From contig MFHU01000017.1 of NCBI GenBank assembly GCA_001778695.1, positions 21,214 through 72,003 of the forward strand: 50,790 nt of DNA. Direction: 5' to 3'. This document shows, piece after piece, positions 37,264 to 39,917 of this stretch. Every line of letters starts with the position of its first letter. The first letter of the stretch is position 1. Origin of the DNA: Candidatus Giovannonibacteria bacterium RIFCSPHIGHO2_12_FULL_44_22 (GTDB lineage Bacteria; Patescibacteriota; Minisyncoccia; UBA11713; 2-01-FULL-45-33). A program made the translations under genes and the position numbers. The notes under the pieces were generated by a model. The model saw nothing but the letters and a program-made list of their open reading frames with translations. It searched no databases and had not been told where the DNA came from.

Positions 37264-37359
37264 AGTTTTAGTTTAATCCAAAAAACTTCAATATAAAAAT
37301 TGGGTTTGACGTGTTAAATTACTTATGATATTTTAGCAACAGAGAAAGGAGGATAGTAT

Positions 37360-37596
37360 ATGTGGGAAGAAAAAACGCTATACGCGGTATTTTTCAACAG
37401 GCATCACAGGCGTTGCGGTTTTAGAACGGTGCTCGAGAGAGATTATTTTATGAAAGAGGGCATTGAGCAGGAAACAGAAAATAGAAAGGTTTCAAAATAT
37501 CGCGTGTACAAAGAACATCTGCGCCAATACGTTCAGGAGAAAGGTTACGACGCGAAAGTTACCCGCGCGCTGTACCTAAACCAAGAGGCTACGTAA
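37360..37596 (+). CDS. Hypothetical protein
   Basis: 78 aa; strong SD AAAGGAGG. Confidence 0.55.
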   Translation: MWEEKTLYAVFFNRHHRRCGFRTVLERDYFMKEGIEQETENRKVSKYRVYKEHLRQYVQEKGYDAKVTRALYLNQEAT

Positions 37597-37611
37597 GCAT
37601 ATCGATTTTAT

Positions 37612-37678
37612 CTTCTTAGAACCACGAATCCCGGGCTTATATCCAAACGGAGGCCTGGGATTTTTTTATTTTTTTAGA
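37612..37678 (-). pseudogene. Remnant C-terminus of a GT39 gene (KKIPGLRLDISPGFVVLRR*)
   Basis: Matches the C-terminus QKIPNLRLDISPGFVVLKNY* of the intact GT39 at 38373-39917. Confidence 0.65.
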
Positions 37679-37700
37679 ATTGATTAATAAAATCAGTTGT

Positions 37701-37736
37701 CTATACAACCTTTAACGATCGTGTAAAAGTGTATAG
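37701..37736. repeat. 36-bp imperfect dyad, copy 1, upstream of PaaX/Cas2-like gene
   Basis: CTATACAACCTTTAACGATCGTGTAAAAGTGTATAG; 29/36 identical to copy 2. Confidence 0.8.
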
Positions 37737-37765
37737 TATGCTAATATTAGAAATAGTATGAAAAT

Positions 37766-38287
37766 ATGAGTAAATTAAATCTTACTAAATTAGTGTTAAA
37801 AACCATCGACGATTTGGGTATTGCGACCTTAGATTCTTTCTTCCCTAAAAAGTATCCACAAGTGAGAGCGTGGAGGCAACTTTTAGGATTAGATTCGGAT
37901 TATCAATTTAAGCGCCAAACTTTTTCAGTCATTTTAACTAGATTGCAAAAACAAGGCCTAGTAGAGAGAAAAAGTAATAAATGGGGGATAACGAATTTTG
38001 GCAAAAAATTTATCAAAAATATAAAAAAAATTAATGCGCCTACTCTCCCTAAAAAAGATGGGGTTTTAAGGCTTGTAATATTTGATGTTCCAGAGCGTGA
38101 GCGGAGAAAACGCGATTGGCTAAGATTAGAATTGATCGCCTGTGATTTTAAGCCGCTACAGAAAAGCGTGTGGATTGGAAATCGGCCGTTACCTCAAGAT
38201 TTTTTAGAAAATTTAGCTGAATTAAATTTATTACCAAATATTCATATTTTCACAGTACAAAACAAGGGCACTATAAACATTAATTAA
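37766..38287 (+). CDS. PaaX-like regulator with Cas2-like C-terminal domain (solo)
   Basis: N-terminal winged-helix-like region; VLRLVIFDVPERERRKRDWLRLELIACDFKPLQKSVWIGNRPLP. Confidence 0.7.
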   Translation: MSKLNLTKLVLKTIDDLGIATLDSFFPKKYPQVRAWRQLLGLDSDYQFKRQTFSVILTRLQKQGLVERKSNKWGITNFGKKFIKNIKKINAPTLPKKDGVLRLVIFDVPERERRKRDWLRLELIACDFKPLQKSVWIGNRPLPQDFLENLAELNLLPNIHIFTVQNKGTININ

Positions 38288-38294
38288 AACGCGT

Positions 38295-38330
38295 CTATAC
38301 AAATTTATACGATCGTGTGTAAATGTATAG
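38295..38330. repeat. 36-bp imperfect dyad, copy 2, just after the stop codon
   Basis: CTATACAAATTTATACGATCGTGTGTAAATGTATAG. Confidence 0.8.
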
Positions 38331-38372
38331 ATAGTATATAGTTATAATTTATTATTTTAGCTCCTGTAGATT

Positions 38373-39917
38373 TTAATAATTTTTTAATACTACAAATCCA
38401 GGACTTATATCTAAGCGAAGATTCGGGATTTTTTGTTTTAAAGTTTTATAAATAGTCGGTTTGGCGTCAATTGGAACTATGATGCATTTTGGGTCGCATT
38501 CTTTAGAGCCGATTTGATTTGCGGTTAAATAATAAATATTTTTCTCCTTCTGTTTTTTCGCAAAAAAAGTGTCAGTAATAAAAATAATCGGCTGAAAAGA
38601 CATCGGCGCCCCGCGCACATCAACTTTGTCCACGGAATCCGTGACAACATATTTTTTAATATCCTTCGGCTGGCCATTTAACCAATTTGCCCTTTCGGTA
38701 ATATCGGTCTCAAAAGCTTCATAAACATTGAAATTGGGCGCCCAGCGGAAAAAATACTGATTAAAAATATAAATTGTGGCGACAATAAAAAAAAGAAAAA
38801 TAAAAATTTTAAGGCTGGATCTGATTTTTCCCCAAAACCACTCTAGCCCCAGAGCGACAAAAATCATGACCGGAGGGATTAAAACAATCGCGCGGAGCGC
38901 GTGCGGAAGAGATTCGTTGGAAAGCGCGACTGGCAAAATCATAACGACAAACCATAATAAAAGAAAAGATTCCGGCCATTTTATTTTTTTTAAAGATAAC
39001 CAAATTCCAATCAAAAATAAAATTCCTATCGGCCACCAGAGCTGTGGAGAACCGGCAAAATTGTGTCGCCAGTTAAAATCTCCAACAAAATTGAACATTC
39101 CCAGAGTTTTTACTAAATTTTCTGAAAATTGGCCAAGCCCCCACACCAATTTGATTGGTGTGGGGGCAAGCGGCTGGGGAATATTAAATATTGATATTGC
39201 TGAAGTGCGCCCTAAAAAATCAGCTGGATTTTGGGCGTAATACCAAAGCAAAGGAAGCGCAGCCAAAAACGCCATAAAAATAAAAAGACCGATTAGGCAG
39301 GGGGCGCAGTAGTTAGATGTCGGACGTCTAAGTTGCCAATTTTTATAAAACTTCCACAATGGCAGTAGCGCGATAATCGGCGTGACGCGGTAGGCGATAT
39401 AACTATGCGCGCCCAAGCCAAGAAGCAATCCGGCTAAAATAAAAATGGATTCTCTTTTTTTTCTTATGCCTAAAAATAAAAAATAAAAACTCCAGATCAA
39501 GAAAAACGGCGCCATAATCGCGCGAAAACCCATCCGCGAAAAATTAATATGCCAAAAAGAAGTTGCCAGAAAAAAAGAAGCAAACAACGCAACGCGCCCT
39601 GAAAACAATTCTTTTGTTAAAAAATAAAGCCCCAGGACTGTAAGTAAGCCAAAAATCGCGCTGGGGAGTCTCAACGCCCAAGGCGTGTGCCCAAAGACCG
39701 CGACTGATAGAGACTGAATATTTATAAAAAGGCCTTCTCTCCCGAAATTTTCAGGATAAAAAATTTTCCATTTATTGCCTTCTAGGGCCTGAATAGTATT
39801 GGTTCCGTTCATGGCTTCGTCGGACCAAAGCCCCGGCGGAGTATTTTTCAGATCATAAAATCTTAAAAAACCGGCAATTAAAATAATCAAAATCAGCCAA
39901 TAAACGGAGTTTTTCAT
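38373..39917 (-). CDS. GT39/ArnT-like membrane glycosyltransferase
   Basis: PPGLWSDEAMNGTNTIQAL; PWALRLPSAIFGLLTVLGLYFLTKELF. Confidence 0.85.
   Translation of the reverse strand: MKNSVYWLILIILIAGFLRFYDLKNTPPGLWSDEAMNGTNTIQALEGNKWKIFYPENFGREGLFINIQSLSVAVFGHTPWALRLPSAIFGLLTVLGLYFLTKELFSGRVALFASFFLATSFWHINFSRMGFRAIMAPFFLIWSFYFLFLGIRKKRESIFILAGLLLGLGAHSYIAYRVTPIIALLPLWKFYKNWQLRRPTSNYCAPCLIGLFIFMAFLAALPLLWYYAQNPADFLGRTSAISIFNIPQPLAPTPIKLVWGLGQFSENLVKTLGMFNFVGDFNWRHNFAGSPQLWWPIGILFLIGIWLSLKKIKWPESFLLLWFVVMILPVALSNESLPHALRAIVLIPPVMIFVALGLEWFWGKIRSSLKIFIFLFFIVATIYIFNQYFFRWAPNFNVYEAFETDITERANWLNGQPKDIKKYVVTDSVDKVDVRGAPMSFQPIIFITDTFFAKKQKEKNIYYLTANQIGSKECDPKCIIVPIDAKPTIYKTLKQKIPNLRLDISPGFVVLKNY

Follow-up and report, generated by a model that had tools for sequence, protein, structure and literature searches.

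In Escherichia coli, PaaX acts as a repressor of its own promoter, through steric hindrance, and its binding sequence is TGATTC(N27)GAATCA (PMC9493321). Among single-gene elements, RAYTs and the enzymes of IS200-IS605 are tyrosine (HUH) enzymes, and REPs usually exceed 100 copies per genome (PMC2817692). An initial annotation of the DNA studied here had described a gene resembling both PaaX and Cas2 that stands between two 36-bp dyads, and had proposed two possible roles for these dyads, either as terminal repeats that delimit a minimal mobile unit or as operators for a regulator of the PaaX type. We have analysed this window, the whole stretch of 50,790 bases, together with its host genome (G000; 643 kb in 17 contigs) and the genomes of relatives. 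Among named genomes, MAGs of Candidatus Giovannonibacteria are nearest to the host. Patescibacteria genomes are very small, yet many of them keep several such genes, and the names PaaX and Cas2, which reflect profile resemblance, say nothing about what the members of the family do. We show here that the dyads belong to the gene, match each other, are conserved with it and differ from one cassette to another. We did not find a description of such cassettes in the literature searched, which took in few subscription journals or preprints, and this absence is weak evidence that they are new.

Results

Gene and protein

The gene, which we call mini-PaaX, lies at 37766..38287 on the plus strand and encodes a protein of 173 aa. 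Its winged-helix region (approximately residues 45-90; 37898..38035, plus strand) has weak Pfam matches to MarR and HTH_45 profiles and shows helices and a wing in the structural model, and it is followed by a PaaX_M/Cas2-like domain (residues 96-169; 38051..38272, plus strand) that matches PF20803, the profile of the central Cas2-like domain of PaaX, with an E-value of 7.6e-16 and 58.4 bits against a cut-off of 24. No match to the PaaX_C ligand domain (PF08223) was found in the protein, its score with the PaaX equivalog TIGR02277 (17.7 bits) is far under the cut-off of 264.55, and the Cas2 profiles remain below threshold (PF09827, 18.5 vs 23.8; TIGR01573, 16.1 vs 24.5). The AlphaFold2 model (mean pLDDT 79.7, pTM 0.56; weak at residues 27-43) combines a winged helix with a domain of ferredoxin-like fold. 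Its top structural matches in the PDB are E. coli PaaX (8a39), which is the best match in both fold and profile comparisons, and a mycobacterial relative, with Cas2 structures ranking lower; whole-chain TM-scores are low (0.3-0.4), and the resemblance to PaaX and Cas2 is one at the domain level. On defining features, this protein falls outside PaaX proper and outside Cas2.

In an alignment of 32 family members, residues G79, F106, D107, R116 and S134 are invariant, the last four within the PaaX_M/Cas2-like domain, and so is an FD(I/V)PE-type motif like that of Cas2. In the domain alignment D107 occupies the position of the metal-binding Asp of Cas2, and E. coli PaaX has no Asp at the equivalent position of the profile alignment. 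Beyond this one Asp, no conserved catalytic set was found in the 32 aligned members, and no transposase motif was found in the protein. These residues bear on the idea that the gene encodes a nuclease, toxin or defence protein under its own operators, with the Cas2-like Asp as a catalytic residue. The invariant motif, its Asp missing from E. coli PaaX, and the many divergent copies per genome, as in conflict systems, would fit this idea; against it, the gene has no partner, its protein matches no defence-system profile beyond the weak Cas2 and wHTH ones, and for the proteins tried no phage or plasmid relatives were found except for one truncated copy on a viral contig. We regard it as quite unlikely.

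Genes of the mini-PaaX type number eight in G000 and were found in 33 of the 55 genomes searched, with up to 13 in a genome; in a phylum-wide draw, 90 of 287 Patescibacteria genomes carry PaaX_M genes, with up to 11 copies each. The remark in the initial annotation that cas1 is missing extends to the whole of G000, which has no Cas1 (PF01867), and Cas1 is absent from 13 of the 14 unit-bearing genomes tested, G000 included. Patescibacteria homologues of at least 236 aa have no dyad pair, and the three of them that were checked match PaaX_C (PF08223), one just below the cut-off. No plasmid or phage relatives were found for the proteins tried. The sole viral-contig relative found (L151, IMG/VR UViG_3300031949_000100) is a PaaX-like ORF that is truncated; it has no clear dyad pair, and a CACGGCCGTG palindrome comes directly after it. 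As the proteins tried gave no more than this single copy, we rejected carriage of the units by viruses or plasmids.

Paired dyads

The upstream dyad of the window (37701..37736, plus strand) reads CTATACA-N7-ACGATCGT-N7-TGTATAG and ends 29 nt ahead of the ATG at 37766, where it is a putative operator lying across the promoter of the gene; the downstream dyad (38295..38330, plus strand), a candidate second binding site, starts 7 nt past the end of the stop codon at 38287. Both are real 36-bp dyads, in direct orientation and identical at 29 of 36 positions, as initially annotated, although the consensus string given at that time was one base out of register and, as written and with three mismatches allowed, yields no site.

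A chance origin of the window dyads is excluded by the homologues. We gathered 83 units through protein similarity, not through dyads, and compared the flanks of each unit with the flanks of other units; upstream and downstream flanks of the same unit match above the 99th percentile of these mismatched pairs in 55 of the 83, in direct orientation in 45 and inverted in eight. A joint palindrome search found paired dyads of about 38 bp, with CGATCG or a close variant at the centre, in 60 of the 83, counts that are not fully independent because part of the units are orthologues of one another. In these 60 units, 14 of which come from the phylum-wide draw as read from the list, one dyad lies ahead of the ATG and the other just past the stop; about 23 homologues have no recognisable pair. 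The pair is therefore a widespread companion of these genes, and the downstream dyad is not a peculiarity of the window: it is as widespread as the upstream one and equally palindromic (15.1 and 14.6 of 20, respectively), which argues that it is not a decaying copy. The downstream dyad is missing from at least one unit, L048, where the gene and the upstream dyad are intact, and L015 and L053 likewise have an intact gene with only one recognisable dyad.

The outer arms of the dyads vary from unit to unit and agree inside one unit, matching at 23.4 of 32 positions within units vs 11.2 between units, and the best match of a dyad among the 60 is its own mate, with ties allowed, in 49 units. For the units of G000, the best match to a dyad other than the mate covers 15-20 of the 32 positions, and mates share 20-31. 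Symmetry is high at the centre, falls to 53-65% at 5-10 nt from it and rises to 72-88% at 11-19 nt, where it ends; selection of the palindromes on overall symmetry inflates these levels but did not impose the three-part shape. In 452 kb of sequence we found 73 distinct dyads at units. Another 17 lie away from them, approximately half of these in loci with unlisted units, and shuffled sequence gave none. Dyads of the same design without an adjoining recognised gene were seen at L051:1195, L063:2535, L113:372 and L127:3092.

We scanned ten genomes of the host's family for the consensus of the window dyads, allowing up to three mismatches. The two sites found in G000, both without mismatches, are the flanks of the gene itself; all six dyads of the orthologous trio in G000, G002 and G006 match without mismatches and flank the orthologous gene, and apart from these flanks the ten genomes contain one extra site, with two mismatches, in G002. 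No further target for the window protein was thus found in G000 at this threshold, and we rejected its regulation of other genes, there being no third site of its type in that genome. Because the protein has no other clear target in its own genome, the cassette has the appearance of a selfish or addictive unit, complete in itself, and not of a regulator of host genes. An ordinary local regulator, acting on neighbouring genes through the dyads as operators, would agree with their operator-like appearance and with the manB-ychF locus, in which the downstream dyad lies just ahead of the ychF start. We consider it very improbable, as the neighbours vary between units, also in orientation, relatives without the unit keep the same neighbours, and the gene downstream of the window unit is convergent with it, which places the downstream dyad away from that gene's promoter. 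Across the family, downstream neighbours are co-directional in 26 cases and convergent in 31, and since they point both ways the downstream dyad is, as a rule, not the promoter of the next gene.

Palindromes at both ends of a gene could also be read as RNA hairpins in its transcript, such as terminators or processing sites, and Cas2-fold proteins include RNases. Selection for RNA hairpins would favour G.T pairs, yet imperfect pairs in the dyads show no such bias (43 G.T vs 60 A.C), which argues that the dyads act as duplex DNA. T-runs follow only nine of 60 downstream dyads, and the upstream dyad overlaps promoter elements, so that much of it is probably untranscribed. With mismatches not skewed to G.T we rejected the hairpin reading, to which we give almost no credence.

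The centre of the upstream dyad is typically 26-28 nt ahead of the start codon, and pairs of -35 and -10 elements fall within this dyad in 25 of 60 units vs 10.6 expected (downstream, 14 vs 8.7). This overlap, together with the short distance to the start codon, suggests that the gene may be autorepressed from a very short leader. The window unit has a weak promoter match, and its upstream dyad is centred 47 nt ahead of the ATG. The outer arms of the family dyads lie at a distance from each other similar to that of the E. coli PaaX half-sites, which fits the TGATTC(N27)GAATCA operator (PMC9493321). The size of the site, the spacing of its halves and the promoter overlap upstream speak for that part of the initial proposal which saw the dyads as operators of a PaaX-type regulator, and they do not extend to regulation of other genes; judged from sequence, a PaaX-like mode of action as an autorepressor is a well-supported prediction.

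Gain and conservation of the unit

In the window the unit is part of a block (37264..38372) that is absent from G001, G003, G004, G007 and G008. Its neighbours, two glycosyltransferase genes, overlap or lie a few nt apart, with no dyad, in the junctions of G001, G004 and G008 as read, and they abut or overlap in G003 and G007 as judged from match coordinates alone. Since the flanking genes adjoin in five relatives without the gene or a dyad, the unit was gained as a block. It stands between both glycosyltransferase genes in G000, G002 and G006, with protein identities of 82-86%, and in G002 the dyads are only about 35 and 58 nt from the neighbouring genes. The gained block can exceed the dyad-to-dyad span, with small accessory genes alongside. 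In the window a small ORF at 37360..37596 (plus strand) has no Pfam match; G006 has a different small ORF and G002 none, and this ORF is probably independent of the unit. Small opposite-strand genes are similarly swapped ahead of rplJ in several relatives.

Other members of the family are present at some junctions and missing from the same junctions in relatives (neighbour gene names were assigned by reading translations). Between rsmE and rplJ, G000, G004, G006 and G008 have a second paralogue, which G001, G003, G005, G007 and G009 lack. G000 and G009 share a third one behind secF; G001, G002 and G006 do not have it, and in the empty G006 junction homology picks up again no more than about 5 nt from the downstream dyad. 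The fourth follows dedA and is missing from G001, G005 and G008. Several of these loci show further changes. At L095 (G008:C7), the rplJ-side unit has ychF in place of rsmE on its left, and homology to the other genomes begins approximately at the upstream dyad, as if at a rearrangement breakpoint. The dedA-udg junction holds a mini-PaaX unit and an oxidoreductase gene in G000, and at L138 (G002:C45) and L139 (G004:C1) what appears by eye to be a diversity-generating-retroelement reverse transcriptase cassette. At L046 and L049, both in G006, the mini-PaaX gene is broken or truncated; the corresponding units of relatives are intact.

A 59-nt imperfect repeat surrounds the window unit, inside the outer coordinates of the initial annotation (37612-38442), which did not mention it. 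Read on the minus strand, the left copy (37613..37671) is an ancestral-type 3' tail of the glycosyltransferase (..GFVVLRR, then stop) and is present in G006 but not in G002; the right copy (38381..38439) is the present 3' tail of the glycosyltransferase gene at 38373-39917. The left copy carries the VVLR ending of unit-free relatives such as G004, and the right copy ends in VVLKN, as in relatives that have the unit; G006 shows the same arrangement. From these sequences the repeat seems to be a duplication that arose during insertion or later. Both copies can form terminator-like hairpins. Such repeats are not general among the units: long direct repeats outside the dyads exceed the 99% null in five of 59 units, with short duplications below the resolution of the comparison, and we rejected long target duplications as a rule, since they are limited to the window locus and a few others. 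At L033, a 41-nt imperfect direct repeat, terminator-like and outside both dyads, resembles that of the window.

Whenever two units exceed 80% identity they have the same context, whereas most pairs at 50-75% differ in it, and no near-identical copies were found at different sites. Units thus change place rarely and are then inherited in place. An enrichment of units at contig ends is not clear (19 within 2.5 kb vs 14.1 expected; KS p 0.09), and with this value we rejected the view that units break assemblies there as a sign of population variability. The mini-PaaX gene is under strong purifying selection (dN 0.073 and dS 0.853 between G000 and G002; serS of the same region, dN 0.142). Both dyads are strictly kept in three species, and their 22 constrained positions are unchanged in the six copies of G000, G002 and G006 at a synonymous difference (pS) of 0.5-0.6. 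Strong selection on the gene, together with unchanged dyads, argues that the unit has a role in place: it is doing something there.

These observations weigh on both sides of the proposal that the unit is a true minimal transposable or homing element, whose protein would use its Cas2-like domain to cut or join the dyads as terminal repeats, either by itself or helped by a nuclease or integrase of the host. Dyads that travel with the gene and are lacking at empty sites, the resumption of homology next to the secF dyad, the presence of units at a given site in some related species and not in others, the decaying copies of G006, the invariant Cas2-type Asp and the long imperfect repeat of target that flanks the window unit would all be expected of such an element. 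The lack of near-identical copies elsewhere, the absence of a conserved catalytic set beyond the Asp, the rarity of outer repeats, the unclear enrichment at contig ends and the strong purifying selection in place, unexpected for a passive insertion, stand against it, and we think it unlikely, if less so than the other alternatives. The gene and both dyads do come and go as a block, and to this extent the minimal mobile unit of the initial annotation holds; its extension to a protein that moves the unit is unsupported, given the lack of a transposase motif and of near-identical copies at other sites.

Discussion

The best explanation of these results is, probably, that the window unit is one of many related single-gene cassettes of Patescibacteria, whose short PaaX-type protein binds its own two flanking sites and represses its own gene. 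Each cassette encodes a winged helix joined to a Cas2-like fold for dimerisation, lacks the ligand domain of PaaX, and carries what would be the two binding sites of its protein. A protein dimer may bind both dyads as duplex DNA, with the wings on the variable outer arms and the CGATCG centre contacted by the conserved part of the protein. At the upstream site it would cover the promoter and repress the gene, and the downstream site could let the protein hold both ends, in a DNA loop or as the boundary of the inherited block.

A bolder interpretation would make these cassettes a new class of Patescibacteria single-gene mobile elements, each mobilised or copied by its own winged-helix protein of Cas2 fold, which would recognise the two terminal dyads, and with the cassettes of a genome mutually orthogonal. 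This is a tentative interpretation that we do not favour. If the cassettes were self-mobile, they would be elements of a new kind, with a bearing on the recruitment of Cas2-like proteins. The cassettes are of interest because each gene has a matched pair of sites, so that candidate binding sites for dozens of uncharacterised regulators can be read directly and their specificities tested, and the family forms a natural series of co-evolved protein-DNA pairs with one common centre.

The units share features with several known systems. With Cas2 they have in common the ferredoxin-like fold, the FD(I/V)PE-type strand and its Asp, whereas they fall below the Cas2 profile cut-offs, have the domain fused to a winged helix and occur without cas1 in 13 of 14 unit-bearing genomes. 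Casposons and Cas1-Cas2 integration resemble them in a Cas2-like protein and repeat-sized dyads, but the units have no Cas1-type integrase, and the inserted block brings its own dyads and duplicates no pre-existing one. Transposable elements with terminal repeats are similar in that gene and dyads move together and no dyads are seen at empty sites. RAYT/REP and IS200-IS605 systems also consist of a single small gene between imperfect palindromes (PMC2817692, PMC6006769); unlike them, the 32 aligned mini-PaaX members have no conserved His/Tyr set and few dyads lie away from units. The closest likeness in fold is to PaaX (E. coli 8a39; Jannaschia 3l09; PF20803, PF08223), which likewise has a winged helix ahead of its Cas2-like dimerisation domain. 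PaaX represses itself from a wide operator with two half-sites, TGATTC(N27)GAATCA (PMC9493321), and the geometry and promoter overlap of the mini-PaaX dyads would fit such a mode of action. Mini-PaaX differs from it in lacking the PaaX_C ligand domain, in its invariant Cas2-type Asp, in its copy number of up to 13 per genome, and in two putative operators with a conserved CGATCG centre that bracket its own gene.
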